NCBI RefSeq assembly: GCF_003002875.1
Contig: NZ_PVTH01000001.1
Location: 558,001-622,000, forward strand
Direction of reading: 5' to 3'
Origin: Arcticibacter pallidicorallinus
GTDB lineage: Bacteria; Bacteroidota; Bacteroidia; Sphingobacteriales; Sphingobacteriaceae
DNA: 64,000 nt
Shown piece after piece: positions 2,214 to 43,325 of the stretch. Position 1 is the stretch's first letter, and each line of letters begins with the position of its first letter. The notes beneath the pieces are model-generated. The model made no database searches, was not told the DNA's origin, and saw nothing but the letters and a program-made list of their open reading frames with translations. The position numbers and the translations under genes are program-made.

Positions 2214-2966
2214 ATGAATAATGTGTTAATTATGGCTGGAGGTCGGTCAAGCAGAATGCGAAACACAACCAGTCTTAGCCTGCACAAAGCTCTGGCTCCA
2301 ATTTTCGGCATACCTTTGATTGAACTGAACCTTCTTTATGCTTACGTTTACGGCTATCGTCAGGCGTGGGTGTCTGTAGCCGCAACAGAGCAGCAGTTAC
2401 TGACCCACTTGGATAGGCTTAAGAAATTGTATCGGAATAAACTTGGCCTCATTATTCAGATTATTGTTGAGGAGATACCTCTCGGGACTATAGGCGCGGC
2501 ACAGTTTGTCGATATAGGAGATGACGATGTGCTTGTGTTGAATGTAGACAATCTTCTGAATCTTGACCTTAGTGTTTTGGAGAACTCGCATATCTCTTCA
2601 AGGGCCGTTATGACTATTGCTTCTCACTACGAATCTTTTTCGATTCCTTTTGGGCAACTTGTGGTTGAAGAAGGAGAAGTGGTAGATTACCTGGAAAAGC
2701 CGAAACAAAGAATATTAGTATCCAGCGGGACATATATACTTGGACCGAAAGCCAGGAGTATAGTTAGTCAAAATTACCCGGAGCAACGAATAGATATTCC
2801 GGGTCTTAGTAAAGACTTAATAGCCTTGGGCGATAAGGTACATTCGTTCCTTCACCAATCCATCTGGAGTGATATAAATGATAAAGACACACTGGAACGA
2901 GTTCGGGAGTCGGAAAAGTGGCCTCTGATCGATAAAATACAAGACCTTATAAGAGAGGTGGTTTAA
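2214..2966 (+). CDS. Nucleotidyltransferase (sugar- or cyclitol-1-phosphate)
   Basis: This 250-residue protein is a Rossmann-like nucleotidyltransferase. The N-terminal nucleotide-binding loop MAGGRSSRMR is followed by KALAPIFGIPLIE (the L-x-P-x-x-x-x-P-L segment). The metal-binding region DDDVLVLNVDN and the FGQLVVEEGEVVDYLEKP stretch follow. Family members join NTP and a sugar-1-phosphate to give an NDP-sugar. It is shorter than typical bifunctional enzymes and has no hexapeptide-repeat C-terminal domain. It is the first gene of a four-gene operon, 13 bases before the GT4 gene. By context it may activate a cyclitol-1-phosphate, as ValB or AcbR do in validamycin and acarbose synthesis; that role is inference. 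Confidence 0.8.
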   Translation: MNNVLIMAGGRSSRMRNTTSLSLHKALAPIFGIPLIELNLLYAYVYGYRQAWVSVAATEQQLLTHLDRLKKLYRNKLGLIIQIIVEEIPLGTIGAAQFVDIGDDDVLVLNVDNLLNLDLSVLENSHISSRAVMTIASHYESFSIPFGQLVVEEGEVVDYLEKPKQRILVSSGTYILGPKARSIVSQNYPEQRIDIPGLSKDLIALGDKVHSFLHQSIWSDINDKDTLERVRESEKWPLIDKIQDLIREVV

Positions 2967-2979
2967 TAATCGCGCAACC

Positions 2980-4152
2980 ATGAAAAAACAACCCATAAAT
3001 ATCCTTTCTATAGTAGCCTACGGATTGTCGTTTGGAGGGGATGAAACCAGGTTGTTAAATCAATGTCGTTTAATAAATAAGGAGAAATTTAATTGCATCA
3101 TTTGTACACCGCGATCTGCGGGAGCCAACATGATGTCGCACTTCAAGAACATAGATGCAAAGATTATCTACATAACCATATTGCCATTCAATTTGAAAAG
3201 CGTTTGGAAACCGCTGAGATTTTTCTTGTTGTTGATCAACTTTGTGATGTATTCAGTTCAATTGGTTAGAATACTGTATAACAAGAAAATTGATATAATA
3301 GACGGTCGCCTTTTGGCGGGTGGAATATACGGCCTTCTCGCAAAAAAAATAATGGGTTTACCAGTATTGGTGACCCTTTACCAAAAGAGTGACTATAGCT
3401 TTCTTGGATCTCTTTGCTCGTACCTGCTGCGATCCAGTGATGTCATAATTTGCGACTCTCAAATGCGGTTGGACGAACTAAAAGAATGGATAGGTAAATC
3501 AAGAGCTAGATTTTTGGTAATCCCAAGTGCAATAGAGGTAAAGTTTTCTGATAAAGATGAGCTGAGAAGAATGAGCTGGTATAGGGAGGATACGAAGAAA
3601 ATAGTTATTGGACAGATAGCTAGCATTATTCCGTTCAAGGGCCAGGATTTACTGATCGATGTTTTTGGTGATATTTCGGCACTGCACAGTATGGCGGAGT
3701 TATGGTTAATTGGATATTCGCGGGACGATATCTATTACGATCGCTTGCAGCAACAGGCTTGTGAGTTAGGAATTGGGGACAAGGTTCGTTTTATCAGCTA
3801 TCCCGGATACATAGGGGACGTTTTTAAAATGATCGATATACAGGTCCATGCTAGCAGATTTGATTCGCTCCCTAACAGTATTTTGGAGGGAATGTCATTA
3901 GGAAAGGCTTTGATCGCGTCGTCTGTCGGTGGAATCCCTGAGGTGGTGGACCATGGTTTGACAGGTCTGCTTTTTGAAGTAAATGATCGTCGGGCTCTAG
4001 CTGATCATTTAAGTGAGCTGATTGTTGACGAGAAAAAAAGAGAGCGGCTCGGCCAGGCCGCGAGGAAAAGATTTGAAGAGGGGTATTCGCCAGATTTTTT
4101 GATAAAGCAACTGGAGGATGAAATAGCTGACCTTACAACTTGCAAAAGATGA
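2980..4152 (+). CDS. GT4-family glycosyltransferase
   Basis: The 390-residue protein has the two-Rossmann GT-B layout of family GT4. The N-terminal acceptor half contains SFGGDETRLLNQC, and a hydrophobic stretch near 75-100 may be a membrane-contacting helix. The C-terminal donor half has IGQIASIIPFKGQDLL, HASRFDSLPNSILEGMSLG and ASSVGGIPEVVDHGLTGLL. The E-x7-E-like donor motif is present with Asp in the first position (D...SLPNSILEG). These enzymes are retaining transferases using NDP-activated donors. The next gene's ATG overlaps this stop codon (ATGA), so translation is probably coupled. Neither donor nor acceptor can be read from sequence; the neighbouring nucleotidyltransferase is a plausible donor supplier. 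Confidence 0.88.
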   Translation: MKKQPINILSIVAYGLSFGGDETRLLNQCRLINKEKFNCIICTPRSAGANMMSHFKNIDAKIIYITILPFNLKSVWKPLRFFLLLINFVMYSVQLVRILYNKKIDIIDGRLLAGGIYGLLAKKIMGLPVLVTLYQKSDYSFLGSLCSYLLRSSDVIICDSQMRLDELKEWIGKSRARFLVIPSAIEVKFSDKDELRRMSWYREDTKKIVIGQIASIIPFKGQDLLIDVFGDISALHSMAELWLIGYSRDDIYYDRLQQQACELGIGDKVRFISYPGYIGDVFKMIDIQVHASRFDSLPNSILEGMSLGKALIASSVGGIPEVVDHGLTGLLFEVNDRRALADHLSELIVDEKKRERLGQAARKRFEEGYSPDFLIKQLEDEIADLTTCKR

Positions 4153-5054
4153 AAATAGCAATCACAGGTGCTGGCGGTTTTATAGGTTCCAATTTGGTTG
4201 ATAGCCTGCGTAAAGAGGATGTTGATCTGGTGCTGATCAGCGGGGCTCATGGAAATGTAAAGTTGTTTGATGATGCTCTTGTAGTGGATATTCTGGATTT
4301 TGAGCTGATGAGAAAATCCTTGACCGGGGTGGATCTTGTAGTGCACCTAGCCGGCTTTAACAGTGTTCGGGAATCTTTCGAGAACCCCGATCAGGCTATA
4401 ATGGTGAATACCATGGGTACAAGTATATTGTTAAACGTATGTTTTCATCTCGACATTCGCAAGGTTGTGATAATCTCCTCCGCCGAAGTTTACGGACGTC
4501 CTGAATCAAATCCAGTGACAGAGAGTGCTATGTTCAGGCCGCTTTCGCCTTATGGGGTGTCGAAAGTAGCTATAGAGCAGCTTTGCTATGTATATTACGT
4601 TGCTTATAACATGAATTTTAAGATTCTTAGACCGTTCTCAATTTATGGTCCGGGAATGTCATCCAGATCCCTGATAAGGGAGATATATAACAGCGCTAGG
4701 GATCGACATGGTGTAACATTGTTTAACTGCTCTTCCACTCGCGATTACTGCTATGTAGGGGACGTAACGTCCGCGATCAAAAAGGCTCTTTTTTCTGAGT
4801 TTTGCGGGGTCGATACCTATAATATTGCCAGTGGCATCGGCACCAATTCGAGGCAGCTGGCAGAAGCCATCCTAACATTAATGAATGAATCAGGGCGTAT
4901 ATCTGAGAGCCCGTTACCCGACAGACCAAGAAATGCTGATATCGATTGCCTGGTTGCTGACGTTTCGAAAGCGGGAGAGGAGCTGGACTGGTGGTCAACT
5001 ACCGGCTTAAATGATGGCCTTAAACAAACTATCGAGTCTTTTGAAAATGAATGA
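4149..5054 (+). CDS. NAD-dependent epimerase/dehydratase 1 (extended SDR)
   Basis: This is a 301-residue extended short-chain dehydrogenase. The NAD-binding GAGGFIG motif is at residues 7-13, the VVHLAG strand near 64-69, catalytic Ser near 110-111, and the Y135-x3-K139 pair in SPYGVSK. LRPFSIYGPG marks the substrate domain. Members interconvert NDP-sugars by 4-epimerisation, 4,6-dehydration or similar steps through a keto intermediate. The ATG at 4149 is preferred over an upstream in-frame TTG (4140) because it forms an ATGA overlap with the preceding stop. It sits between a glycosyltransferase and a second SDR in one operon. Confidence 0.85.
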   Translation: MKIAITGAGGFIGSNLVDSLRKEDVDLVLISGAHGNVKLFDDALVVDILDFELMRKSLTGVDLVVHLAGFNSVRESFENPDQAIMVNTMGTSILLNVCFHLDIRKVVIISSAEVYGRPESNPVTESAMFRPLSPYGVSKVAIEQLCYVYYVAYNMNFKILRPFSIYGPGMSSRSLIREIYNSARDRHGVTLFNCSSTRDYCYVGDVTSAIKKALFSEFCGVDTYNIASGIGTNSRQLAEAILTLMNESGRISESPLPDRPRNADIDCLVADVSKAGEELDWWSTTGLNDGLKQTIESFENE

Positions 5055-6084
5055 ACGTGTATTAATAACAGGAGCACAGGGCTTTTTAGGCCGGTATGTG
5101 ACGGCCGCAATCTTGAAGGCTGATTCCAACTGCGAAGTTATCGGGATAGGCAGATCAGGGCGTTCTGATGATAGTTTTACGCATACTCTTCACATTAAAG
5201 ATGGTCAAAATATCCCTGCGCCTCTGCCTTTAGCACTTAGAAACATTTTCACAGAACGTTATCGTTACCTTTCGGTAGATATCAACAGTAAAGCGCAAAT
5301 AGATGAGCTTTTCCAAGCTTATCGTCCATCGGCCATTATTCACCTGGCGTCAGGGTTAAGAGGTGACAGTTGTAGTAAATTATTCAATACCAATATTAGT
5401 GGGATGTTGAATTTAATGAGTGCTTGCAGGGCTTATGATTATACCGGGTCATTTATTAGCGTCTCCAGTGGTGGGGTATACGGTTTTCCAAGTAAACCAG
5501 GTGATCTTCCGTTTTTGGAGTCGCATCCTTGCAATCCCGAAGATTCGTATCAATTAACCAAGGCGGCCGAAGAAACAATTGTAAAGGAGTTTTGTGAGTA
5601 TTTGGCGATCCCCTGGATGATCCTGAGGGTCTTTAACGTTATAGGTCCGGGGCAAGACGAACGGCATGTTTGCGGCCGGTTTGTAAGCGAACTGGTGCGC
5701 ATCAAAAATGAATATAAAGACGCATACTTGAAAACGTCAGCACTTACATCAGTGCGTGATTTTGTAGACGTAAGGGACGTGGCAAGTAATATAGTGGGTC
5801 TTTTTATGAATAAGCAGTACAAAAACGTATTTAATATCTCATCAGGGAAGCCTGCAGAGATCGCTGTCGTTTTGAATAGCTGTTTGGCCGCGGTCTTTGG
5901 TGCAGAGATCGGTCATTTAAAGATCGATAGCGTGCAGACGGACGAAACCGTTAGTAAACAAATTGATCACCATTTTGGAGACAATTGTAAGTTGCTTTCT
6001 TTTGGAGGTTCTGTGAATTTTAGTTTGGAGAACAGCATCAGGGACATGGTAGCATATTATGATTCGGTGTATACTAAACATTAG
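5047..6084 (+). CDS. NAD-dependent epimerase/dehydratase 2 (extended SDR)
   Basis: The 345-residue protein has GAQGFLG at residues 9-15, AIIHLASG near 96-103, Ser near 140-141 in SVSSGGVYG, and the Y168-QLT-K172 active site. RVFNVIGPGQDE leads into the substrate domain. It belongs to the extended SDR group acting on NDP-sugars but differs clearly from its upstream neighbour, so the pair is unlikely to be a recent duplication. The ATG at 5047 overlaps the preceding gene by 8 bases; an in-frame start at 5011 would overlap it much more. Its stop (TAG, 6082-6084) overlaps the stop of the convergent cupin gene. Confidence 0.85.
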   Translation: MNERVLITGAQGFLGRYVTAAILKADSNCEVIGIGRSGRSDDSFTHTLHIKDGQNIPAPLPLALRNIFTERYRYLSVDINSKAQIDELFQAYRPSAIIHLASGLRGDSCSKLFNTNISGMLNLMSACRAYDYTGSFISVSSGGVYGFPSKPGDLPFLESHPCNPEDSYQLTKAAEETIVKEFCEYLAIPWMILRVFNVIGPGQDERHVCGRFVSELVRIKNEYKDAYLKTSALTSVRDFVDVRDVASNIVGLFMNKQYKNVFNISSGKPAEIAVVLNSCLAAVFGAEIGHLKIDSVQTDETVSKQIDHHFGDNCKLLSFGGSVNFSLENSIRDMVAYYDSVYTKH

Positions 6085-6449
6085 CCGGCATTGGTCCCGC
6101 CCTTGCTTATAGGTGTTTCCAAAACTATCAGATGTACGTCTTCGCTTCCTGTATTTAGCAATTGATGTGTCCCGCCGATTGGATTAACAATCACGTCTCC
6201 TTCTTTGACACTGTATGCTTTACCTTCAACTATCATCTCCGCTTGTCCGGATATAATGATGTAAATTTCTTGGTTATCAGCGGAATGGGTGTGCTTTCCA
6301 ATGCCGGAGGATACAGGCACCTTCACAAAATCAAGAAAGTTAAAGGCAAAATGTGAGGACAGAGTAGCCACACGGGAGAAGTAAATCGGGTTCATGCCGT
6401 TATGAGCTTTGCCATAACTATAATCAAGATTATCAAAGGAATATTTCAT
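6081..6449 (-). CDS. Single-domain cupin protein
   Basis: This 122-residue protein shows both cupin motifs. GKHTHSADNQEIYIIISGQ supplies the H-x-H-x(n)-E metal-ligand set, and NPIGGTHQLLN supplies the second-motif His. Small cupins of this kind serve as sugar isomerases or epimerases, dioxygenases or metal-dependent lyases. It is the last gene of the minus-strand operon, 18 bases after the dehydrogenase gene. In a cyclitol or sugar pathway it could be an isomerase/epimerase, the job done in validamycin synthesis by a different metal-dependent fold (ValD). That role is a guess; the fold is not. Confidence 0.8.
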   Translation of the reverse strand: MKYSFDNLDYSYGKAHNGMNPIYFSRVATLSSHFAFNFLDFVKVPVSSGIGKHTHSADNQEIYIIISGQAEMIVEGKAYSVKEGDVIVNPIGGTHQLLNTGSEDVHLIVLETPISKGGTNAG

Positions 6450-6467
6450 AACTCGTTTTAGATAGTG

Positions 6468-7400
6468 TCACAATGGGATAGGGTTGTTTAATTTCAGGGA
6501 CAGGTTGACTGCGTCTACCAATTCCTGGGTTTTTTTCGCTTCTTCTACATTACATAAAATGGATGATGGATCGTTGTTGATTACTGCGTTCAGAAAGCTC
6601 CTGGTTTCGATATCGAAGATGTCCTGACCTGACAACATAGGAAGCGATAAGTCATCCGGAGATGTCAGATTGAAATCCCATCCGGTCAAGCTGACTTTGT
6701 TTTCTTTCGTGTAAAGATCAAGTCCAATGTTCTTGGCGCTTGCATCACAGCTGTACAAAATGTTCCCCACGATACCAGATTTAAACTTAAGCGCAATGCT
6801 GATGGAGGTTGCAAAGGAAAGCTCATTGTCGGCGCCGGTGGCATATACTTCTCTTACTTCACCCATGATATAGCGGTTAAGATCAAGTAGATGGGTAGCT
6901 TGTTCGTTTAGTGGTCCTCCAGATTCTGATTGATTAGCCCACCAGGGTACCTGATACATCTTATTAATCCAGTAACTTGAAATGCCCAGACAGGCAACGT
7001 CTTTTACATGCTTTATGGAGGCGCGATATCTGTTCATGTATCCTACCGCATTTATCAATCGTTTCTCGTTGATTTTTTGCAGCAGGTTCTCTAATCCATC
7101 GGAATTGAGGGAAAGAGGTTTTTCTATAAGAAAAGGCAGATTATTCTCAATAGCAAATTCAATATGCGTCAGATGGTGGCAAGGGGGTGAGCATATAAAA
7201 AGCGCATCAATCTTTTCTGTCGGGAATTTCTCCAGGCTTGGATAGGTATGTACATCGGGATATACTTCTTTGATTTCTCTTAAACGATTCGCGTCAGTGT
7301 CTGAGACAGCTACAACACGGTGGCCGGAAGCCTGAGTAGATGCAGCCCTGATCTTACCCATTCTCCCACATCCCAGTATGCCTATGTTAAGTGTTTGCAT
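6468..7400 (-). CDS. Gfo/Idh/MocA-family NAD(P)-dependent dehydrogenase
   Basis: The protein of about 310 residues has an N-terminal Rossmann fold (IGILGCGRMGKIRA) and the family hallmark E-K-P in LIEKPLS. The C-terminal alpha/beta domain carries GGPLNEQATHLLDLNRYI with the catalytic-type His and Asp. Family members oxidise or reduce hydroxyl/keto groups of sugars and inositols, including glucose-6-phosphate 3-dehydrogenase (NtdC) in kanosamine synthesis. The start at 7400 (MQTLNIG) is preferred because the Rossmann motif begins there; an in-frame ATG at 7424 would add eight residues. It overlaps the end of the GH4 gene by 14 bases. Confidence 0.87.
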   Translation of the reverse strand: MQTLNIGILGCGRMGKIRAASTQASGHRVVAVSDTDANRLREIKEVYPDVHTYPSLEKFPTEKIDALFICSPPCHHLTHIEFAIENNLPFLIEKPLSLNSDGLENLLQKINEKRLINAVGYMNRYRASIKHVKDVACLGISSYWINKMYQVPWWANQSESGGPLNEQATHLLDLNRYIMGEVREVYATGADNELSFATSISIALKFKSGIVGNILYSCDASAKNIGLDLYTKENKVSLTGWDFNLTSPDDLSLPMLSGQDIFDIETRSFLNAVINNDPSSILCNVEEAKKTQELVDAVNLSLKLNNPIPL

Positions 7401-8604
7401 GTTCTTGTTCTTTATGATAAACATTTGAAATGTACTTTTCCATTATATCTATCTCCGTGTCTTTGGCAAGTGGGTCAAGTTCTAATGCTTGTTTAATGTT
7501 TTGTGATGTGGGATCCAGCGAAGCTGTCAAAACTGCGCTTTCAAGTTTGATAAATGTTTGTAACCATTTCCCGGCCTCCAGAGGAGCTTTTGCTGATTCA
7601 AGAGCGGTCAATGATGATTGGCTTACCTGAGTTAAACCCTCGATAGTTAATCCTGAATGGTTTACCGTATTCAGCACCAGGGTTTTTGCAGAGTCGGAAC
7701 CCATGGCTTTCAACAGGGGTATCACCCCGTTTTCGTACCAGTCCATATTTCGGTCTTTAAGGCTTAAGGGCGAATGATCAGCCTCAAGAAGGAGCTCCTG
7801 TATTATTCGATTTCCAATTAATTGTACCTCTTGCGCTCTGTACTCCGGGTGATGTGACTCGGTAAACAGATGAAAGTATTTGAGCGGAATGGCACCCAGC
7901 GCTTCGATTTCGTTACAAGTAAATCTGTTGAATCCCTCATCGGCTATCATTTCGAGAAAAGTAGCAAATACGTCCTTCCCTCTAAATTTAACGCTATGGA
8001 TGAACCCACGATGGTTAAGTCCCGAATATTGCCAGTCTATTTCCTCCGGAGGAAGCTTCAGCACTTTGGCAACTTTTTCAAGCGTTGTAACCGGTAATTC
8101 GCAAATACCGACAACATTTCTAACGTTACAATGATGAAATATGGAAACTGCGATACTGAGTGGGTTGGTTAAATTAATAACCATTGCATCGGGGCATAAT
8201 TTCATAATTTTACCTGACAGCTCTCTTAAATATGGGGCCATTCGAATGGCTGATTTCAAGCCGCATGGGCCAAGAGTTTCATCAGGGGGAAAACCAAATT
8301 TTCGAGCGAAGGATTCATCCTCCATACGTCCCACCAAACCTCCGTACCTGTTTTGATGAAGTAAAATATCTGCGCCATAAAGTGCATCATCTAAGCTGAT
8401 GCTGCATTGGATGTGCCAGCCAGCTTTTCTCAGGAGTTTTGTTGCGTACACGGCAATTAAATCCAGCTGTCCGCTATTTCTTCCATGTAATACCAGATGG
8501 TAAGCTTGTTCAAAACTCGCTGAAGCAAATTGTTCAATAAGCTCTATGGTGAAAGGGCTGCTGCCCCCTAGAATAGTGAGTTTTGGTAACCGGGCCAGGC
8601 TCAT
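7387..8604 (-). CDS. GH4-like NAD-dependent glycosidase
   Basis: The 405-residue protein matches glycoside hydrolase family 4 in length and order. It has an N-terminal NAD-binding loop (LTILGGSSPFT), ETLGPCGLKSAIR, the NLTNPLSIA segment, VVGICE with the metal-ligand Cys168, and SGLNHRGF with the metal-ligand His198. GH4 enzymes need NAD+ and a divalent metal and work by transient oxidation at C3 followed by elimination. Many take 6-phospho-glycosides from PTS systems; others take unmodified galactosides or glucuronides. Here it sits in a biosynthetic-looking operon without a PTS or transporter. It might therefore process a pathway intermediate or a pseudo-glycoside. Its start overlaps the aminotransferase stop by 4 bases. 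Confidence 0.82.
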   Translation of the reverse strand: MSLARLPKLTILGGSSPFTIELIEQFASASFEQAYHLVLHGRNSGQLDLIAVYATKLLRKAGWHIQCSISLDDALYGADILLHQNRYGGLVGRMEDESFARKFGFPPDETLGPCGLKSAIRMAPYLRELSGKIMKLCPDAMVINLTNPLSIAVSIFHHCNVRNVVGICELPVTTLEKVAKVLKLPPEEIDWQYSGLNHRGFIHSVKFRGKDVFATFLEMIADEGFNRFTCNEIEALGAIPLKYFHLFTESHHPEYRAQEVQLIGNRIIQELLLEADHSPLSLKDRNMDWYENGVIPLLKAMGSDSAKTLVLNTVNHSGLTIEGLTQVSQSSLTALESAKAPLEAGKWLQTFIKLESAVLTASLDPTSQNIKQALELDPLAKDTEIDIMEKYISNVYHKEQEHANT

Positions 8605-9704
8605 GTGTTGAAAAACTGGAGAGTGCTGTCACAAACGTAGTTTAACTCATCTTCCGTCATATCTGGTCTTACCGGCAGGCATAATAGTTCACGGGATAAT
8701 GCTTCTGCTACAGGAAAATCTCCCTTTACCCAACCTTCATTCTGAAAGGCATGCTGTAAATGGATAGCAATAGGATATCGGACAACTGCGTCTATCTCCT
8801 TACTTTTTAGAAAGGCCATGAGTTCGTCTCGCTTTTTGGTCCTTATAGTAAACTGATGATAGGCATGTACTTCATTCACATCGCGTCTTTGGAAAATTAA
8901 AGGGAGTCCGCTTAGTTTTTGAGTATAGTAGTCCGCAATTCGATTCCTATCCTCGTTCCATTTGTTTAAAAACTGAAGCTTCCAATCGAGTATTCTGGCT
9001 TGCAGAGCATCTAGCTTACTGTTAAAGCCTAACACTACATGGTTGTTTTGACCATCTTGTCCGAGTGACGCTATCCATTGGCTTTTTACGTAGAGATCTT
9101 CGTCATTGGTCACAATACAACCCGCATCACCAGCAGCTGCAAGGTTTTTACTTGGATGAAAGCTGAAGCAACCGATCTTTCCAAACGTGCCCACAAACTG
9201 TCCATTTAAAGCAGAACCGTGAGCGTGCGCACAATCTTCAATTACCGACAGGTGGTATTTGGCGCAGAGCTCTGTTATTTCCGGCATTGGAGTTGGTTTT
9301 CCATAAAGGTGTACCGGAATAATGACTTTTGTTCTATGGGTTATTTTTGCTTCGAGTTGATTGATGTCAAGGAGGTAGGTGTCATTATCTGCATCAATCA
9401 ATATCGGAGTTGCTCCTACAAACTTTATAGCCGCTACAGTAGCATGAAAGGTGTTTGCTTGTGTTATTACTTCATCACCCGGGCCAATGTTTAATACCTT
9501 CAATGCAAGTATCAGTGCATCGGTGCCAGAGTTGGTGCCACAGGCATAGCGAGCATGAGTAAATGCAGCGAAGTTTTTCAGAAACGATGTTACTTCTTTA
9601 GTGAGTACGTAATTACCTACCAACAGCATTCGTTTTATGTCATCAAATAGTTCTTCTACATCCGGCCCGAATTGCTTTTCATACGCATATCTATTTATTT
9701 TCAT
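8601..9704 (-). CDS. DegT/DnrJ/EryC1-family PLP aminotransferase
   Basis: This 367-residue fold-type I PLP enzyme has the pattern of sugar and cyclitol aminotransferases: ACGTNSGTDAL (phosphate-binding), VIEDCAHAHGS with the pyridine-N Asp157, and SFHPSKNLAAAGDAG with the PLP Lys186. It would transfer an amino group, usually from glutamate or glutamine, to a keto-sugar or keto-cyclitol. ValM and AcbV in C7N-aminocyclitol pathways, glutamine:scyllo-inosose aminotransferases, NtdA and RifK serve comparable steps. The start at 9704 overlaps the ROK kinase gene by 14 bases, so expression is likely coupled. The keto substrate is not readable from sequence. Confidence 0.9.
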   Translation of the reverse strand: MKINRYAYEKQFGPDVEELFDDIKRMLLVGNYVLTKEVTSFLKNFAAFTHARYACGTNSGTDALILALKVLNIGPGDEVITQANTFHATVAAIKFVGATPILIDADNDTYLLDINQLEAKITHRTKVIIPVHLYGKPTPMPEITELCAKYHLSVIEDCAHAHGSALNGQFVGTFGKIGCFSFHPSKNLAAAGDAGCIVTNDEDLYVKSQWIASLGQDGQNNHVVLGFNSKLDALQARILDWKLQFLNKWNEDRNRIADYYTQKLSGLPLIFQRRDVNEVHAYHQFTIRTKKRDELMAFLKSKEIDAVVRYPIAIHLQHAFQNEGWVKGDFPVAEALSRELLCLPVRPDMTEDELNYVCDSTLQFFNT

Positions 9705-10698
9705 ATATCGCTTTTCTTACAGTTTCAGAGAATCTGCCGGCGCCCGCTAATCCTATTTCTGTTCCTTCCGGTCCAATTTTTACCATTTCATCCCAGTTCT
9801 GTCCGAGATTCCAGCAAAAAGTAGCAGCAAGATCCGCAACACTACGGCGGTATGTTTCGCCCAGTGCGGTTGAAAAGCCGCCAATGATTATAAACAGCTC
9901 TATGCCCGTAGTCGTATGTATAAGCGCTATCGCTCTGGCAAGTTGCCTTGCCGTTTTGTCGATTACGCTTACCGTCCACGCGTCGCCCTTTAAGTAAGCC
10001 GTCACAAGAGTTTCGTTAAGAATATCCTGGCAGTCAGGATGTATTTTGCCCACATATGATTTCTGATAGTCTGCATGATTGGACATGGATTGGGTTTTTG
10101 CAAACCCGAGAACACCCCTGCCAGAACATATGCCTCCAAGATGGCCCTTTCCTCCGCAATCGCAAATCGGTGCTTCCTGTGAATCATCGGTTACCCAGTG
10201 ACCAATTTCTCCACCACGCCCCATAACACCGGTATAGGGTTTCCCGTTGATAAAAAGCTTACTACCGATTCCCGAACTTACACTAATGACACAGAAGTCT
10301 TCCGGGTAAATGTCTTTCAAAAGGTATCCAGCTGCCGAAATATCATTCAGGACATGAACATTCGAATTTGGCCAAAAGCTTTTAAGACGCGGGATAATGG
10401 ATGACGAACCTTTAAACCTTTCGCCCCAGATAGTGGGCGTACTCAGTAGCTCGCCGCTCGGGGTGATAGGACCGGGGAAGCCAATTGTGACCACTTCCGG
10501 CTCATCATATTCAAAAAGCTCCTTACTCAATAGAGTCATTTCTTTATAGAGTTGCTCAAAGGGCAAGACATCAGACGGGGTGTTCCAGGCATTAGGTGTA
10601 TCCTTTCTGCTGATACTGACGAGTTGTTGTGTGGCAAAGGAATAACGCCCCGCTCGCAAATTTGTACCACCAACGTCAAACACTAAAGCATCGGCCAT
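9691..10698 (-). CDS. ROK-family sugar or cyclitol kinase
   Basis: The 335-residue protein has the ATP-binding DVGGTNLRAG loop (residues 8-17), catalytic-type Asp119 in VLNDISAAGY, GSGIGS-like SSGIGSKLF, and GEIGH (Glu164, His167). The zinc-binding pattern of ROK kinases is present but altered: His167-x11-Cys179-x-Cys181-GGKG-His186, where the third Cys is normally expected and the following Glu is Gly. ROK members include glucokinases, kanosamine 6-kinase (RifN) and the cyclitol 7-kinases AcbM and ValC. Position between a cyclase and an aminotransferase gene favours kanosamine or a cyclitol as substrate over plain glucose, by inference. Confidence 0.85.
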   Translation of the reverse strand: MADALVFDVGGTNLRAGRYSFATQQLVSISRKDTPNAWNTPSDVLPFEQLYKEMTLLSKELFEYDEPEVVTIGFPGPITPSGELLSTPTIWGERFKGSSSIIPRLKSFWPNSNVHVLNDISAAGYLLKDIYPEDFCVISVSSGIGSKLFINGKPYTGVMGRGGEIGHWVTDDSQEAPICDCGGKGHLGGICSGRGVLGFAKTQSMSNHADYQKSYVGKIHPDCQDILNETLVTAYLKGDAWTVSVIDKTARQLARAIALIHTTTGIELFIIIGGFSTALGETYRRSVADLAATFCWNLGQNWDEMVKIGPEGTEIGLAGAGRFSETVRKAIYENK

Positions 10699-10714
10699 AT
10701 TTTAAAATGATTGG

Positions 10715-11842
10715 TTAATAATGTGTTGAAGCCTTAGATAATGCAAGTTCATCTTTCGCTACCAGATCGTTGCACGCATATTCAAATTCTGAAAAAGAAA
10801 AATCGCTTAGAAAAAAGGGGTCGCCGATTTTCCGGAGAGCCACGATACTAAAGTTGCCACCCTTATGTTTAGTCACGACTTCCTTTTTATCAAATAGTTG
10901 TTGGCAAGTTAAAGCTGAATGCCAGCTCGGCATGTTTAATGAGTCAAGCACTGAGACGAAATCCTCATAATGACTTTTATCCATTAAACCTTGCACATAA
11001 GCGAGGTTGTTAGATAATCGCATTCCAATACCGACAGCTTCTCCATGTGATATTTCAAAGTTGGTTAGCACCTCTATTAAGTGACCAAATTCGTGACCAT
11101 AATCAACGACACGGTACAGGTTTTCCTCAAATAGATTATCGCGTAATTCCTCCAGCATAAAGTATATTGACCGGTCTATCAATTCAATTACATCCGCATC
11201 TATTTTTTTGAGCAGAAAATTGTGAATATTGCGCTTTAATAGGTGCCAGCTATCGTTGTCTTTTAATGATATGATTTTAATCATTTCAATTAATCCATTC
11301 TTGATCTCACATAGGGGAAGCGTATCCAGGAAGTCCAAGTCGATAAAAACAACATCCGGCAAATAAAACGTGCCAAGGGAGTTCTTACAGCCGGCATAAT
11401 TAATACCGTTTTTCACTCCAACAGAGGCATCGATGATGCCTAACAAAGTGGTAGGGATCTTGATGCAGGGCGTGCCCCGTCTGATTAAATTAGCAGACAT
11501 ACCGGCCAGATCACAAACTATGCCGCCTCCAATAGCAATGATGGAGTCGCGCCTGCCAATACCATTCTTGAAACAAAATGAGGTGAAGTCTATAACAGTC
11601 TGTAAGTCTTTGCTCTTCTCTGAAGCATCAATCAAGAAGTGATAAGCTTCAATACCATTTCGTGAAAAATAGGCCTTTGCCGCAAGGTATTCGTTTATCA
11701 GCTTTCTGTCAATAAGGCAATATGCTTTATGGGTCTTGATATGATTGCCTAATGCCGGATTGTTTTCATCGAAAATGTTTGTCACCCGTTTTATCTCATA
11801 CGTTAACGTATTCTCGAGGGATATTTTAAAGACTCGATCCAT
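10715..11842 (-). CDS. Sugar-phosphate cyclase of the DHQ-synthase fold, probable EEVS-type
   Basis: The 375-residue protein has the NAD loop IGGGIVCDLAG (GGG at 105-107), RRGTPCIKIPTTLLG (121-135), VGVKNGIN (141-148), and metal ligands Glu186 (NGLIEMIK), His250 (DYGHEFGH) and His266 (SHGEAVGIGM). His250 and His266 are 16 apart, as in dehydroquinate synthase. Shikimate-pathway DHQ synthases usually read GGKTAVN and N-x-GHTxGH; here they are GVKNGIN and D-x-GHEFGH, and RRGTP precedes PTTL. This pattern matches the sedoheptulose-7-phosphate cyclase group (EEVS and relatives: AcbC, ValA), not aroB. Product: probably a C7 cyclitol. It leads the six-gene minus operon. Exact subgroup is unproven. 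Confidence 0.78.
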   Translation of the reverse strand: MDRVFKISLENTLTYEIKRVTNIFDENNPALGNHIKTHKAYCLIDRKLINEYLAAKAYFSRNGIEAYHFLIDASEKSKDLQTVIDFTSFCFKNGIGRRDSIIAIGGGIVCDLAGMSANLIRRGTPCIKIPTTLLGIIDASVGVKNGINYAGCKNSLGTFYLPDVVFIDLDFLDTLPLCEIKNGLIEMIKIISLKDNDSWHLLKRNIHNFLLKKIDADVIELIDRSIYFMLEELRDNLFEENLYRVVDYGHEFGHLIEVLTNFEISHGEAVGIGMRLSNNLAYVQGLMDKSHYEDFVSVLDSLNMPSWHSALTCQQLFDKKEVVTKHKGGNFSIVALRKIGDPFFLSDFSFSEFEYACNDLVAKDELALSKASTHY

Positions 11843-12146: not shown

Positions 12147-14936
12147 TCATTGCCGGTTTTCTTTCTTCTTCCGCCTGTACTCCGTTGGGCTGCAATTATA
12201 TCGGGCTTTGAACACCGTGGAAAAATACGTCGGGGAGGCAATACCTACTTGATAGGTTATTTCAGAGATGGATATCTCTTCGTTCAATAATAAATATTTG
12301 GCTTTCTGTAGACGCCTGTTTAAGATATAGTCGGTAATCGTACAATCCAACAGCGCTTTCGCTTTGCGGTATAGCTGAATTCTGGACATACCTATGCTTT
12401 TGCAGATATCGTCTACACTGAAGTTTTCGTTGGCGATATTGCTCTCCACTATAGAAGCAAACTCGTTTAAAAATTTCTTGTCAAGCTTTTTGGAGGCGGG
12501 TAGTTTACTTTCTACCGGGAACTCACTGCTAAAACGGGATCGTAATAAATCTCTGTTATGAAGGAGGTTTTTGATCGTTTCGTCGAGATATTGAAGATTA
12601 AAGGGTTTGGTAATGTAAGCATCAGCCATTGTTTTTAAGCCCTTTATCTGCTGTTCCTGGCTTCCTTGAGCCGTTAGAAGGATGATGGGTATGTGAGATG
12701 TCCGGATGTCGTTTTTAAGCGCCTGGGTGATTTCTGTTCCTGATTGTGCTGGAAGCACAACGTCTGAAATGATAACATCCGGGACGTTTTCAAACGCCTG
12801 ATGTAAGCCGCTGTTTCCGTTGTTAGCTGTAAACGTCTCGTATTGGGTGGAAAACTTCTGTTTCAAGAAGTTCAACAGTTCTTCGTTGTCTTCGATTATG
12901 AGAATAGAACGCTCCTTTAATGATTGCTGAGGTATTGGTGTATCTGCTATCTCTGTTGTGTCTTCTAATTCAGTGGTATAGATCTTAATGTTGTCGTAAT
13001 CCACTGTAGATTCTTCTGCTGTATGAACTTTCTCGTCCTCATGGAGATGTCTATCACCTAAGGGCAGCTGAATAATGAAGCGTGCGCCTTTTTCTTTTTG
13101 ACTGGACACTTTTATTGATCCTTTGTGTAACAAGATCATCTCTTTCGAAAGCGACAGTCCCAGACCAGAACCTTTGGATCGCTTCAAATCATCTTGATAG
13201 AACAGGTCGAACGCATGCGTCAGTGTATGTTCATCCATTCCTGCGCCATTGTCCTCGACTTTCAACTCCACGCTATTCGTCTCCTCGTTCTTTTCTATGG
13301 TGACAATGATTTTTCCGCTGTCGTGGCTGAACTTAAAGGCGTTGGATAGCAGGTTGAATAGCACTTTGTCAAGCATATTGGTGTCGAACCAGGCGCTTAT
13401 ACGGCTTTCGCGGCTTACCATCCGTAAATCTATATTTCTTTTATACGCGATATCTTTGAATAGATCGATAATCTCCTTTGTGAATGCTAGAAGATCATTT
13501 TCTGTAGCGCGTACCCGCATCTTTTCATAGTCTATCTTTCTGAAATCAATCAACTGATTGACCATTCGCAGGAGCCTCATCACGTTTCTGTTAATAAGCT
13601 GCAAATGACTTCGTGTTTTTTGAGGAAGTTTGCTGTCGGCAAGCAGCTCTTCTAATGGTATGAGTATCAGGGTTAAAGGAGTTCTGAATTCATGTGAGAT
13701 ATTGGTAAAGAAATTAAATTTGGCTTCCGTGGCGGATTTGGCTTTTTCAGACATTTCTATTAGCTGATTTTGCTTTTCGAGAATCTCATGATTTTTGTTT
13801 TCCAGGTGCTTATTGTTTTTCCAGTTTTCGTTAAGTGAATAAAAAGCGATTCCGGCGAACACAATCGCTAATACCAGGCTGACGACCAGAATATTCAGTA
13901 TTACTTGCTGATTGTTATAAACAATTTTTTGTTCGGAAAGCATATTCTGCTGCCTCTCAATATCTTTCTGCTGGCTGGTCATTTTATCTGCCTGCAGGAT
14001 CATCAGTTCTACATTGCTTGAATCGATCACAACTGACTTCAATGCTGTGTTTTTATCGAAGGGCAACTTGTTCAGGATATTGATGGCTGTGCGGATCGCT
14101 TCTTTTCCTCCTGTAGGGTACAACATGGATGCATCGAGTACTTTTTTTGATACTAGTTCAAGACCGTTGTTTTTTCCGGGTAAAGCATCAACGCCTACGA
14201 GTTTGATCTTTCCTTCAAGGTCGTTGTTTCTAAGAACAGCGCAGGTTCCCAAGGCCATTTGATCGTTATGAGCGAATATGGCATCGGCCTGGAAGAGTAA
14301 GTGCTTGTTCAAGCTGACCTCTTCTTGTGCCTTATTGTTGAGCCAGCTTCCCGAAAGCTGCTTAATGATTTTGATTGATGGATAGCGTTTTAGAGCATTC
14401 TTAAAGCCCTCGTTTCGCTCTATTGCAGGAGAGGATCCGGTAAGTCCTGTCACCTCAATAATATTTCCTTTTTCCCCCAGACGGTGAGCCAGGTATTCGC
14501 CGGCCATTCTCCCGATCTCAAAATTGTCGGCACCCACGTATGCTGTATAAAAGTTAGAAGAGACCTTACGGTCAATTACTACGACTGGCGTTCCCTGGCT
14601 GAAAGCTTGTTCGACAATGGGTGTCAGGGGCTCTGATTCGTTGGGGGAAATAATCAGGAGATCGATATCTTTCTCCAGTAGTGATTTGACCTGTTCAATC
14701 TGTTTATTACTGTTTCCGCCCGCATCTTCATAAATGAGCTCGATATCTGAATGAAATGATAGTTCTCTGCGCATCTCTTCCAGCATGGTGACCCTCCACT
14801 GGTCGGAACCGATGCACTGGGAGAAACCGATTGTGAATCTGGGCTTATCTTGATTGCCTTTACAAGCACTCAAAAACCCTGCAAAAAGCGATAAGAGTAA
14901 AATCAAAAGATGAAGTCTCTTCTTATTTCCCGTCAT
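12147..14936 (-). CDS. Hybrid two-component sensor/regulator (HTCS), BT1754-like
   Basis: The 929-residue one-piece sensor has a signal sequence with lipobox-like FLSAC25 and a periplasmic sugar-binding domain of the LacI/ribose-binding type (about 33-310). A transmembrane helix (346-367) and coiled linker follow. The histidine kinase has His415 in SHEFRTPL, ATPase motifs near 525-595 (NLLSNAFKFS, GSGLGLSLS) and a response-regulator domain (Asp683, phospho-acceptor Asp725, Lys777). An AraC-type HTH (830-925) ends the protein. In Bacteroides thetaiotaomicron, BT1754 with this architecture binds fructose and activates the fructan PUL. Here it is divergent from a fructan PUL, so fructose is the likely ligand. 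Confidence 0.92.
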   Translation of the reverse strand: MTGNKKRLHLLILLLSLFAGFLSACKGNQDKPRFTIGFSQCIGSDQWRVTMLEEMRRELSFHSDIELIYEDAGGNSNKQIEQVKSLLEKDIDLLIISPNESEPLTPIVEQAFSQGTPVVVIDRKVSSNFYTAYVGADNFEIGRMAGEYLAHRLGEKGNIIEVTGLTGSSPAIERNEGFKNALKRYPSIKIIKQLSGSWLNNKAQEEVSLNKHLLFQADAIFAHNDQMALGTCAVLRNNDLEGKIKLVGVDALPGKNNGLELVSKKVLDASMLYPTGGKEAIRTAINILNKLPFDKNTALKSVVIDSSNVELMILQADKMTSQQKDIERQQNMLSEQKIVYNNQQVILNILVVSLVLAIVFAGIAFYSLNENWKNNKHLENKNHEILEKQNQLIEMSEKAKSATEAKFNFFTNISHEFRTPLTLILIPLEELLADSKLPQKTRSHLQLINRNVMRLLRMVNQLIDFRKIDYEKMRVRATENDLLAFTKEIIDLFKDIAYKRNIDLRMVSRESRISAWFDTNMLDKVLFNLLSNAFKFSHDSGKIIVTIEKNEETNSVELKVEDNGAGMDEHTLTHAFDLFYQDDLKRSKGSGLGLSLSKEMILLHKGSIKVSSQKEKGARFIIQLPLGDRHLHEDEKVHTAEESTVDYDNIKIYTTELEDTTEIADTPIPQQSLKERSILIIEDNEELLNFLKQKFSTQYETFTANNGNSGLHQAFENVPDVIISDVVLPAQSGTEITQALKNDIRTSHIPIILLTAQGSQEQQIKGLKTMADAYITKPFNLQYLDETIKNLLHNRDLLRSRFSSEFPVESKLPASKKLDKKFLNEFASIVESNIANENFSVDDICKSIGMSRIQLYRKAKALLDCTITDYILNRRLQKAKYLLLNEEISISEITYQVGIASPTYFSTVFKARYNCSPTEYRRKKKENRQ

Positions 14937-15245
14937 GTGTTTCCTCTGATTCTATAATTGATTATTGAAAGCTACATAAATTTGATTAAATGCTAAACCT
15001 TAAGGGTTTGATCACCGCGTTTGAACTCCTCAGACCTATCTCTAAAGTGATTTAAAAGTTAAAAAAGGTGATACAAATTTGAAAGTGTAGTTGGTTCTTA
15101 AATTGGTGTTTAAAGATAAATATTTGATATATAGATATTTACAAATATATTCGACTGCGCTTCATTTTTTGAAGACATTGATACGAATTCAAAACCTAAA
15201 ATTGGAATAAGCATCTACTTTGGTGATTGTAAACCTAATAAGTAT
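14937..15245. promoter_or_regulatory. Divergent control region of the fructan PUL
   Basis: This 309-bp AT-rich region separates the sensor gene from the MFS transporter gene and must hold promoters in both directions. Repeated ATTTG/CAAAT half-sites occur at 14980-14984, 15074-15081 (palindrome CAAATTTG), 15122-15126 and 15142-15146, the last two facing each other across 15 bases. They are candidate binding sites for the sensor's AraC domain. TACTTTG at 15216-15222 resembles a Bacteroidetes -7 box with one spacer base missing. These assignments are by eye. Confidence 0.4.
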
Positions 15246-16577
15246 ATGCAAAAAAATTCTGTTATCGCCTGGTCACTGGTTGTGGCACTCGGCGGATTTC
15301 TCTTCGGCTTTGACACTGCGGTGATTTCGGGAGCTGAAAAATCTATCCAGCAATATTGGGCACTTAATGTCTTCGAACATGGCCTGACGGTGTCTATAGC
15401 TTTAATAGGTACCGTAATAGGCTCCCTGGTTGGCTCGGTTCCTTCTGATAAATATGGTAGGAAAAATACGCTATATATGGTTGCTGCTTTGTATTTGTTG
15501 TCTGCTATTGGAACGGCTTATGCAACCGACTGGTATGTATTCTTGCTATTCAGATTGATGGGCGGATTCGGAGTGGGTATGTCTTCGGTTACTGCTCCTA
15601 TCTACATCTCGGAAATATCTCCTGCTAATCTGAGAGGCCGTTTGGTTGCCTTGTTTCAGTTCAATGTGGTACTGGGGATTTTGATTGCTTATTTATCCAA
15701 TTACCTCATTGGTCAGGAGGGGGAGAATTCATGGCGATGGATGCTCGGTGTTCAGGCATTTCCGTCACTCATCTATCTTGCGTTAATCAGGTTGGTTCCT
15801 GAGAGTCCCCGTTGGTTGGTATTGCACAAGGGGAGGGATGCTGAAGCTTTGAAGGTATTGAAACGGATCAATCCGCTTAATTCGGAGCAGGAGCTGATCG
15901 CGATTAAGCAATCACATAGGGTTCTGGCTGAATTTGAAAAGCCGGATTCTCTGCTCACAAAGAAGTATAAAACGCCGATAACATTGGCGGTTTTATTCGC
16001 TGTCTTCAATCAGGTGTCAGGTATAAATGCGATTATCTATTATTCTCCGCGCATTTTTGAGATGGCGGGACTGGGTGCTCATACATCTTTATTATCTACT
16101 GTAGGTATTGGGCTAGTAAACTTTACTTTCACTTTGATAGCCATTGGCTTCATCGATAAGGTGGGAAGAAGGACCTTGATGTTGATAGGGTCTGTGGGCT
16201 TAATACTCTCTCTCGGTTTGGTCTCACGTACTTTCTTTATGAACGATTTTAGCGGCTTCGCGATCACATTTTATCTGATGATATATATCGCATTCTTTGC
16301 TTTTTCACAGGGTGCCGTAATCTGGGTATTTATTTCAGAGATCTTCCCAAATGAGGTTCGCGCGAAAGGCCAGACGCTCGGAAGTTTTACGCATTGGATT
16401 ATGGCAGCTGCGATTACCTTTTGTTTTCCATACCTGTCTGAAATTGCGGGCGGCGGAAATACATTTCTATTTTTCAGTGTAATGATGATGCTGCAGTTGC
16501 TCTTCGTATGGAAACTTATGCCTGAGACTAAGGGTAAGTCACTTGAGCAGATTGAAAGCAATATGATGATGCATTAA
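15246..16577 (+). CDS. MFS sugar porter, probable fructose importer
   Basis: The 443-residue inner-membrane protein has twelve hydrophobic segments and the sugar-porter signatures: GFLFGFDTAVISGA in helix 1, SDKYGRKN (loop 2-3), RLMGGFGVGMSS, PESPRWLV before the central loop, and FPNEVRAKG and PETKGKSLEQIE at the C-terminus. These define the GLUT/XylE-type branch of the major facilitator superfamily, which moves monosaccharides by proton symport or facilitated diffusion. As first gene of an operon continuing with a fructokinase and SusC/SusD, it corresponds in position and class to the putative fructose importer BT1758 of B. thetaiotaomicron. Substrate is inferred from context. Confidence 0.9.
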   Translation: MQKNSVIAWSLVVALGGFLFGFDTAVISGAEKSIQQYWALNVFEHGLTVSIALIGTVIGSLVGSVPSDKYGRKNTLYMVAALYLLSAIGTAYATDWYVFLLFRLMGGFGVGMSSVTAPIYISEISPANLRGRLVALFQFNVVLGILIAYLSNYLIGQEGENSWRWMLGVQAFPSLIYLALIRLVPESPRWLVLHKGRDAEALKVLKRINPLNSEQELIAIKQSHRVLAEFEKPDSLLTKKYKTPITLAVLFAVFNQVSGINAIIYYSPRIFEMAGLGAHTSLLSTVGIGLVNFTFTLIAIGFIDKVGRRTLMLIGSVGLILSLGLVSRTFFMNDFSGFAITFYLMIYIAFFAFSQGAVIWVFISEIFPNEVRAKGQTLGSFTHWIMAAAITFCFPYLSEIAGGGNTFLFFSVMMMLQLLFVWKLMPETKGKSLEQIESNMMMH

Positions 16578-16605
16578 CCATATTAAACCTTTAAGAATTG
16601 CAGGT

Positions 16606-17532
16606 ATGAAAGGAAAAGATCACAATGTAGTCTGCTTTGGTGAGATTCTATGGGATAACTTGCCCACAGGCAGAAAGCCAGGCGGCGCACCCATGAACGT
16701 CGCCTACCATTTAAAAAAACTGGGTATAAACAGTATACTGATCAGTCGGGTAGGGGATGATCATAATGGTGAAGAGCTGATCCGCTTTATTAAGGCAAAG
16801 GGATTATCTACGGACTTTTGCCAGAAGGATCCTGATCACGTAACTTCTACGGTAGAGGTAGTGATAGGCGATGACCAGGAGGTGAGGTACGATATCGTTG
16901 CGCCCGTAGCCTGGGATTATATAGCACTCGAAAAGGGCTTGCCTGAGCTTGTTTCTGAATCAGATGCCTTCGTCTTTGGAAGTCTGGCAACAAGAAATAG
17001 GACTTCTTACGAGACGTTGCTTTCTTTACTTGAGAAAGCGAGCTGCAAAGTGTTTGATGTTAATCTGCGCGCTCCTCATTTTGACGTGAAGAAAATCGGT
17101 AAGTTGCTATCAAAAACCGACTTGTTGAAACTAAATATCCATGAACTTTACCTCATCTCTGGTTGGTTTGATACAACCTGTAGTACGGAAAGTGAAAGGA
17201 TCAGCGTATTGCAAAATCTCTTTGGCATTCCGGAAATAGTTCTGACCAAGGGTGGAAGTGGTGCATCTTTCTATACTCAAAACGCTCAGTGTAATTACCC
17301 TGCTTTTAAGGTTGAAGTGAATGATACTGTCGGGAGCGGAGACTCTTTTCTTGCTGCATTTTTGTCGAAAAGGATAAAGGGAGAGGGTATTGAGGGGACT
17401 TTAAATTACGCCGCAGCTTTGGGAGCTTTTATTACGACTCACTCAGGAGCATGTCCGGAGTATAAGAAATACGATTTAGAAAGATTTATATGGAAAAATG
17501 ATCTAAACTCAGCCAGACACTTAATTAAGTAG
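16606..17532 (+). CDS. PfkB-family fructokinase
   Basis: The 308-residue cytoplasmic kinase has the N-terminal PfkB motif (GGAPMNVAYHLKKLG, residues 26-40) and the C-terminal signature DTVGSGDSFLAAFL with catalytic-base Asp246 and the GSGD anion hole. FGEILWDNLP at the start is typical of the fructokinase/aminoimidazole-riboside subgroup. It would phosphorylate imported fructose to fructose-6-phosphate. It lies 28 bases after the transporter gene and 24 before SusC, so it is in the same operon and matches BT1757 in the B. thetaiotaomicron fructan locus. Confidence 0.9.
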   Translation: MKGKDHNVVCFGEILWDNLPTGRKPGGAPMNVAYHLKKLGINSILISRVGDDHNGEELIRFIKAKGLSTDFCQKDPDHVTSTVEVVIGDDQEVRYDIVAPVAWDYIALEKGLPELVSESDAFVFGSLATRNRTSYETLLSLLEKASCKVFDVNLRAPHFDVKKIGKLLSKTDLLKLNIHELYLISGWFDTTCSTESERISVLQNLFGIPEIVLTKGGSGASFYTQNAQCNYPAFKVEVNDTVGSGDSFLAAFLSKRIKGEGIEGTLNYAAALGAFITTHSGACPEYKKYDLERFIWKNDLNSARHLIK

Positions 17533-17556
17533 AAAATTAACTAACTAACCAAACTC

Positions 17557-20634: not shown

Positions 20635-20680
20635 CGAGAGAGATTGTCTGATTTAATAATCTGTTATAGATCTGAATAGT

Positions 20681-22378: not shown

Positions 22379-22395
22379 TACTAATCATCATAGAT

Positions 22396-23778: not shown

Positions 23779-23816
23779 GCGCGTTATCCAAAAAACCATT
23801 TACTAACAAGACAATT

Positions 23817-25391: not shown

Positions 25392-25412
25392 TCACTTTTA
25401 ACGCTTATTTAC

Positions 25413-27395: not shown

Positions 27396-27434
27396 GTTGC
27401 TCTGTTCAATCTGAATAATAAATTAAATATTTTT

Positions 27435-35505: not shown

Positions 35506-35516
35506 TATTGATTGTA

Positions 35517-37403: not shown

Positions 37404-37438
37404 TTCATCGAGTGTATAGATCAGATAAAAAATTTAAT

Positions 37439-40462: not shown

Positions 40463-40481
40463 TGATTTAACACTTAATGAT

Positions 40482-42245: not shown

Positions 42246-42268
42246 TCCGCTGCAGATTATAAAACAAT

Positions 42269-42298
42269 GATAGGGTTTAACGATTCGGTTGCCCTATC
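42269..42298 (+). other. Intra-operon hairpin
   Basis: GATAGGG (42269-42275) pairs exactly with CCCTATC (42292-42298) across a 16-base loop in the 81-base gap between the second SusD gene and the DUF1735 lipoprotein gene. There is no T-run. It could protect upstream mRNA or attenuate downstream expression. Confidence 0.4.
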
Positions 42299-42326
42299 TG
42301 AGTTCATATATAACTAAAATATTGTG

Positions 42327-43301: not shown

Positions 43302-43325
43302 TTATAAACTTTAGATCCGGAACAA

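Follow-up and report, generated by a model that had tools for sequence, protein, structure and literature searches.

A ten-gene block in Arcticibacter pallidicorallinus with a predicted sedoheptulose 7-phosphate-derived aminocyclitol pathway

The window analyzed here is a 64,000-nucleotide stretch of an Arcticibacter pallidicorallinus contig. A block of ten genes at positions 2214-11842 of this window probably encodes an aminocyclitol pathway derived from sedoheptulose 7-phosphate (S7P), an assignment that is made from sequence and applies to the block as a whole rather than step by step. The ten genes would form one horizontally mobile pathway from S7P to a nucleotide-activated or glycosylated C7-(amino)cyclitol, or pseudo-sugar. 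In the open-access literature, S7P-cyclase-type biology in Bacteroidota was found only as the ebo operon (PMC5133447), and nothing was found on the ten-gene block.

Ten-gene block and its predicted entry cyclase

All ten open reading frames (ORFs) of the block are uninterrupted in the ORF listing of the window. Four genes lie on the plus strand and six on the minus strand, and the two convergent sets overlap by 4 nt at their 3' ends. The features are as follows.
2214..2966, plus strand, nucleotidyltransferase (NTP_transferase, PF00483), 250 aa, a probable cyclitol- or sugar-1-phosphate nucleotidyltransferase; best curated relatives guanylyl-type; Daejeonella oryzae ortholog 50% identical
2980..4152, plus strand, GT4-family glycosyltransferase (Pfam), 390 aa, candidate coupling transferase; D. 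oryzae ortholog 47%
4140..5054, plus strand, extended short-chain dehydrogenase/reductase 1 (SDR1; NAD epimerase/dehydratase, Pfam); D. oryzae ortholog 54%
5011..6084, plus strand, extended SDR2 (NAD epimerase/dehydratase, Pfam); D. oryzae ortholog 50%
6081..6449, minus strand, Cupin_2 protein (Pfam), 122 aa, proposed cyclitol isomerase/epimerase; D. oryzae ortholog 68%
6468..7424, minus strand, Gfo/Idh/MocA dehydrogenase, 318 aa (start may be 7400), nearest curated relative inositol 2-dehydrogenase; D. oryzae ortholog 55%
7387..8604, minus strand, GH4-fold NAD/metal enzyme (Pfam and alignment), 405 aa; D. oryzae ortholog 50%
8601..9704, minus strand, DegT/DnrJ/EryC1/StrS aminotransferase (Pfam), 367 aa; D. 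oryzae ortholog 69%
9691..10698, minus strand, ROK-family kinase (Pfam), 335 aa, proposed cyclitol 7-kinase; D. oryzae ortholog 60%
10715..11842, minus strand, sugar-phosphate cyclase of the S7P-cyclase half of the superfamily (Pfam and tree), 375 aa, predicted entry enzyme; D. oryzae ortholog 59%

The junctions between consecutive genes are +13, -13, -44, -4 (the convergent one), +18, -38, -4, -14 and +16 nt, a range of +18 to -44. Some of the overlaps shrink once downstream starts are taken, and SDR1 probably begins at the ATG at 4149 instead of the TTG at 4140. Pfam assigns a family to each protein: NTP_transferase, GT4/Glycos_transf_1, Epimerase (twice), Cupin_2, GFO_IDH_MocA, Glyco_hydro_4 with its 4C domain, DegT_DnrJ_EryC1, ROK, and DHQ_synthase with DHQS_C. 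A sequence-only reading had described ten adjacent genes in two tight convergent sets and named their families by motif; the intact, tightly packed ORFs bear out the layout and Pfam matches every family call. Curated NCBIfam equivalog cut-offs were reached by none of the ten proteins, which are thus outlying members of their families. No Bacteroidota -7 promoter motif (TANNTTTG) was found in the two outer intergenic stretches of the block.

The closest solved relative of the cyclase is ValA, a 2-epi-5-epi-valiolone synthase (EEVS; 4p53, 1e-55), followed by a cyanobacterial desmethyl-4-deoxygadusol synthase (DDGS; 2.9e-41) and then by true dehydroquinate (DHQ) synthases. In a tree of 50 sequences, among which 2-deoxy-scyllo-inosose synthase (DOIS) and aminoDHQ synthase references were not included, the A. 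pallidicorallinus and D. oryzae cyclases form a lineage of their own (100/100) on a long stem that joins EEVS, DDGS and a Streptomyces S7P cyclase at 97/89. Positions 267, 281, 288 and 360 in ValA numbering are taken here to be diagnostic EEVS sites. The cyclase has Leu267, Asp281 and His360 as in EEVS, and the Asp and His are also present in the D. oryzae ortholog. DHQ synthases have Asn at position 281, their Lys position is also replaced in the cyclase, and DDGS has Ala and Thr at positions 281 and 360. The ValA structure yielded a 14-residue fingerprint, two sites of which separate EEVS from DDGS (eLife 05919).

Both Pfam and NCBIfam label the cyclase DHQ_synthase/aroB, which would make it a shikimate or aminoshikimate (DHQ or aminoDHQ) synthase and place the block in an aromatic or 3-amino-5-hydroxybenzoate-like pathway. 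The TIGR01357 (aroB) score of 234 is under the cut-off of 305, however, and the approximately unbiased (AU) test rejected the grouping of the cyclase with DHQ synthases (p = 0.012). Together with the replaced Asn and Lys positions and a separate AroB on contig 7 of the source genome (each congener has one too), these results make a DHQ-type function very improbable. Neither an aminoDHQ dehydratase nor an aminoDAHP synthase is present among the ten genes, as the sequence-only reading had noted for the block; the rest of the genome was not searched for them.

A different question is whether the cyclase is functionally like EboD, with a product other than a valiolone-type cyclitol that feeds a separate kind of cyclitol metabolite. 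The ebo operon (EboA-F), found in Bacteroidota, cyanobacteria and eustigmatophyte plastids, also has a sugar phosphate cyclase distinct from AroB, for which a cyclitol product has been proposed (PMC5133447) and which has some of the same active-site residues. EboD has the Asp281 and His360 equivalents, and this pair is therefore not unique to EEVS. The cyclase and its D. oryzae ortholog have His at the ValA Pro288 position and the cyclase has Asn at position 172, features in common with EboD, and the AU test did not reject a cyclase-EboD grouping (p = 0.114). The best tree nevertheless places the cyclase with EEVS and DDGS and EboD in its own clade (100/100), and Leu267 is as in EEVS. The partners of EboD are a UbiA prenyltransferase and TatD-like, xylose-isomerase-like and phosphatase proteins, and no ebo partner (UbiA-like EboC, EboE or EboF) occurs among the ten genes. 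An EboD-like function is improbable on this evidence, though less so than a DHQ-type one.

The match to ValA, the tree, the active-site residues and the separate AroB together point to an entry enzyme that is most probably an S7P cyclase and represents a new, separate deep lineage outside EEVS proper. The sequence-only reading had called the cyclase EEVS-like. Its position in the EEVS/DDGS half of the superfamily with Asp281 and His360, and outside the shikimate DHQ synthases, agrees with that description, but nesting inside EEVS proper was rejected (p = 0.028).

Three further observations concern related cyclases. Cyclases of the EboD clade occur in many relatives within the family, which suggests that ebo operons are widespread in Sphingobacteriaceae; the source genome has no such match. 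In a Ketogulonicigenium vulgare plasmid, two Gfo/Idh dehydrogenase genes precede an ebo-type cyclase, a variant of the usual ebo layout. A very divergent sugar-phosphate cyclase (4854-5969) of a Streptomyces microflavus plasmid has a branch length of 2.07 and Gln in place of His360, and its gene is beside a flavoprotein gene.

Kinase, aminotransferase and GH4-fold enzyme

The genes for the cyclase (10715-11842) and the ROK kinase (9691-10698) are adjacent, and the same pairing occurs in Rhizobium rhizogenes, Streptomyces clavuligerus and A. vitis plasmids. Plasmid searches covered 72,556 plasmids and were run blind with one protein per query. The best match to the ROK kinase was in Streptomyces sp. 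NBC_00467 (7e-49, 35% identity), where the gene sits in an S7P-cyclase cluster with a cupin, an aminotransferase, an ABC exporter, a nucleotidyltransferase, a glycosyltransferase and MalQ that recalls the acarbose cluster. The runner-up (3e-18), from R. rhizogenes, directly adjoins another S7P cyclase. An atypical CxCGGxGHLGG zinc motif is common to the A. pallidicorallinus, D. oryzae and NBC_00467 kinases. The S7P-linked ROK kinases were recovered as one clade in 44% of bootstraps (AU p = 0.51), a result that neither establishes nor rejects a single clade.

The aminotransferase and the cupin have connections of their own. The second-best distinct plasmid match to the DegT aminotransferase lies in an S. 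clavuligerus S7P-cyclase cluster (45% identity), and its relatives include scyllo-inosamine-type and 3-amino-sugar aminotransferases. The cupin is 38% identical to the cupin adjoining the NBC_00467 cyclase. Stand-alone Vibrio cupins match it equally well, which makes the cupin link to cyclitol clusters weaker than the ROK link, and the cupin alone was dropped as a marker of such clusters for this reason.

The plasmid clusters have features of their own. The NBC_00467 cluster lies in the 136000-166000 region of a linear plasmid, and its cyclase branches outside EEVS plus DDGS with Arg at the ValA His360 position. On R. rhizogenes pC6.5b and the A. vitis plasmid, the cyclase-ROK pairs are followed by TIM-barrel epimerase genes and resemble cyclitol clusters. 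The S. clavuligerus cluster recurs in many plasmid records of that species. A module on a Sinorhizobium plasmid (6415-9891) encodes tagatose-6-phosphate kinase-like, cupin, DegT (46% identical to that of the block) and HAD proteins with transposases on the flanks, and is possibly another aminocyclitol or amino-sugar cassette.

The GH4-like protein passes the Pfam thresholds for both GH4 domains and is 23-30% identical to GH4 glycosidases. No counterpart at 1e-28 was found among 396 sampled Bacteroidota genomes apart from its own. A multiple alignment with BglT and five others shows that the N-terminal NAD motif (GGSS), Cys168, His198 and Tyr243 are retained. By analogy with BglT and GlvA, Cys168 and His198 are presumably the metal ligands and Tyr243 the catalytic Tyr. 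The substrate motifs are changed in both orthologs: GQET is DET, RYY is HLF, and Glu follows the Cys where GH4 glycosidases have Asn or Asp. The NTRN motif is degenerate, NTVN and NKPT in the two orthologs. AlphaFold models made from two-sequence alignments had a mean predicted local distance difference test score of 49 for this protein and 40.5 for the cyclase, too poor for use.

GH4 enzymes act on 6-phospho-hexosides by oxidation with enzyme-bound NAD, β-elimination, water addition and reduction (PMC10628242). Among pseudo-sugars, a cyclitol 7-phosphate corresponds to the 6-phosphate of a hexose. From this redox chemistry and the likeness of the two substrates, we infer that the GH4-fold enzyme performs a redox-assisted dehydration and/or epimerization of a cyclitol 7-phosphate. 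It shares with GH4 6-phospho-β-glucosidases (BglT and others) the fold family, the GGS NAD motif, the metal Cys/His pair and the Tyr base, and the substrates of these relatives are 6-phosphates. It differs from them in its low identity and altered motifs, and in its setting in a block that appears biosynthetic and lacks a phosphotransferase system.

Proposed pathway and its alternatives

The protein families, the two-set layout, the joint conservation and the clade of the cyclase are evident from sequence, and the reaction steps are inferred. The precedent is acarbose biosynthesis, in which AcbC, AcbM and AcbO act first, valienone 7-phosphate is then formed in an NADPH-dependent dehydration by AcbL, and AcbN catalyzes a reduction (PMC7081202). 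In the block, the cyclase would convert S7P to a valiolone-type cyclitol. That the product is an S7P-derived cyclitol is likely; that it is exactly 2-epi-5-epi-valiolone has a chance somewhat below even. The ROK kinase would then phosphorylate the C7 hydroxymethyl group, like AcbM and ValC, a role nearly as well favored as that of the cyclase. The cupin and the GH4-fold enzyme would jointly replace AcbO and AcbL in the epimerization beside the ketone and the loss of water, with the cupin as a possible isomerase. A tentative mechanism for the GH4-fold enzyme is a transient NAD oxidation of the ring and a metal-assisted enolization or elimination, with a 7-phosphate substrate that resembles the hexose 6-phosphates used by related enzymes. 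The Gfo/Idh oxidoreductase would adjust the ring ketone or alcohol and DegT would aminate the ring ketone, a step that is somewhat favored. In the last step, with even odds, the nucleotidyltransferase activates the product or a partner sugar, the SDRs remodel the nucleotide sugar and GT4 joins the halves to form a small glycosylated aminocyclitol.

The nucleotidyltransferase belongs to the NTP_transferase family with guanylyltransferases as its best matches and a weak glgC match (21.7 bits). AcbR of the acarbose pathway prefers GTP and yields GDP-valienol (PMC9200736), and the guanylyltransferase-like sequence fits this preference but does not prove a common role. The sole transferase in the block is GT4/Glycos_transf_1, and no pseudo-glycosyltransferase of the GT5 (AcbS) or GT20 (ValL/VldE) type is present. 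A polymerase, a flippase and a dedicated exporter are also absent from the ten genes, which makes a small glycosylated aminocyclitol more likely as the product than a repeating polymer, although the product may also be built into a glycan assembled by other loci. Of the two products that the sequence-only reading offered, a glycosidase inhibitor and a surface-glycan sugar, either may be right.

These activation and coupling genes resemble ordinary sugar-nucleotide enzymes, and the block might instead make an unusual amino-sugar or glycan building block (a 3-amino sugar, kanosamine-like or GDP-sugar). In such a route a hexose would be aminated by Gfo/Idh and DegT, and the cyclase would contribute a small part or a separate decoration. 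Pairs of Gfo/Idh and DegT enzymes are known for hexose amination (NtdC/NtdA and WbpB/WbpE). DegT is close to the 3-keto-sugar aminotransferases QdtB (1.5e-86) and NtdA (4e-50), the nucleotidyltransferase and SDRs look like sugar-nucleotide enzymes, and one plasmid relative of the nucleotidyltransferase lies in a legionaminic-acid cluster. On the other side, the cupin is a Cupin_2 protein that does not match FdtA/QdtA (PF05523), none of the hexose-specific 4,6-dehydratase equivalogs scores above its cut-off, and the cyclase, ROK, DegT, GH4, Gfo/Idh and cupin genes are one six-gene set in both genomes. An amino-sugar pathway is unlikely on balance, although it is the strongest of the alternatives to an S7P-derived aminocyclitol pathway.

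Several observations weigh against the aminocyclitol assignment. Besides the exclusion of the cyclase from EEVS proper, its residues in common with EboD and the equally good Vibrio cupins, a Croceicoccus ROK kinase with no nearby cyclase falls among the ROK proteins linked to sugar-phosphate cyclases, which do not form a clean clade. A phosphatase, an exporter, a known pseudo-glycosyltransferase and an AcbL-type dehydrogenase are all missing among the ten genes. The known carriers are two genomes, so each role leans on family membership.

Comparison with the known clusters defines what is shared and what is different. The acb and val clusters of Actinomycetota likewise have an S7P-cyclase-type entry enzyme, a ROK-family kinase, a nucleotidyltransferase, an aminotransferase, dehydrogenases and a glycosyltransferase. 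The block differs in its separate cyclase lineage, in a GH4-fold enzyme, Gfo/Idh and Cupin_2 where acb has AcbL, AcbN and AcbO, in DegT, in GT4 instead of GT5 or GT20, in its two SDRs and Bacteroidota host, and in the lack of an exporter or amylomaltase. The NBC_00467 cluster shares the S7P cyclase-cupin-aminotransferase arrangement, the ROK kinase, the nucleotidyltransferase and the glycosyltransferase, but has another aminotransferase class, an ABC exporter and MalQ, with neither GH4 nor Gfo/Idh found there by tblastn. The S. clavuligerus cluster shares ROK, S7P cyclase and DegT, but has a medium-chain dehydrogenase, a ribulose-phosphate 3-epimerase, HAD and GNAT and lacks GH4 and cupin. As judged from sequence, the block shares the working principle of known C7-cyclitol pathways, with differences in the cyclase lineage and in several tailoring enzymes. 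By the tests made, it lies outside EEVS proper, the ebo operon and the GT5/GT20 pseudo-glycosyltransferase clusters.

Conservation, mobility and meaning

A cyclase ortholog is present in 2 of 301 genomes of the GTDB family, including the source genome. The other carrier, D. oryzae DSM 19973 (Sphingobacteriaceae), has all ten genes with order and relative orientation kept and 47-69% protein identity. Two genes are added there, a methyltransferase-like one inserted between GT4 and SDR1 and one after the cupin that is glycosyltransferase-like by eye only. This colinearity in another genus shows that the arrangement is not chance. The sequence-only reading had proposed a single pathway for the ten genes, with an EEVS-type and not a DHQ synthase-type cyclase at its entry, and had named a neighborhood search as one check; the genes do stay together in a relative, and this conservation and the cyclase phylogeny both support the proposal.

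Searches for the cyclase in five other members of the source genus and 19 other Daejeonella found no carriers. Scans of order, phylum and class samples gave no further close cyclase ortholog within those samples. A genome-contig scan with a single protein gave no match, and one with the GH4 pair, which used two short patterns only, had D. oryzae as its sole match, so that absence from those contigs carries little weight. The sites also differ. In D. oryzae the genes on the two sides, annotated by eye, are one for an rsgA-like GTPase and one resembling a D-aminoacyl-tRNA deacylase gene, and the A. pallidicorallinus block is flanked by a thioredoxin-like gene on one side and a fructan-utilization locus on the other. 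Three congeners keep the sensor-transporter end of this neighboring locus with none of the ten genes within 20 kb. The patchy presence and the retention of internal order at different sites indicate that the block is a portable, patchily distributed island that moved between genera as a unit.

The neighboring fructan-utilization locus (12147-28961) encodes a hybrid two-component sensor, an MFS sugar porter, a PfkB kinase, a long SusC-like protein, a DUF4960 protein and three GH32-type proteins, and its sensor-porter end is kept in congeners. A second polysaccharide-utilization region (32341-45014) encodes a SusD protein together with a GH10 xylanase that looks split.

C7-cyclitols underlie the diabetes drug acarbose and the crop fungicide validamycin, and the worked-out pathways come from Actinomycetota. 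The block may be a third, convergently assembled C7N aminocyclitol route, located in Bacteroidota. In this tentative proposal, a previously unrecognized S7P-cyclase lineage provides the entry step, and an enzyme of GH4 descent, taken over from the hydrolysis of sugar 6-phosphates, serves in biosynthesis as an NAD/metal redox dehydratase/epimerase that acts on a cyclitol 7-phosphate. The compact ten-gene island would have moved between genera. The deposited strain D. oryzae DSM 19973 has the complete unit, which opens the pathway claim to direct testing. If correct, a compact Sphingobacteriaceae pathway with a new cyclase lineage and a GH4 fold as a dehydratase substitute would widen the available chemistry and offer an example, open to test, of a glycosidase fold put to use in biosynthesis. 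It would also hint at glycosidase-inhibitor-like molecules in Bacteroidota.

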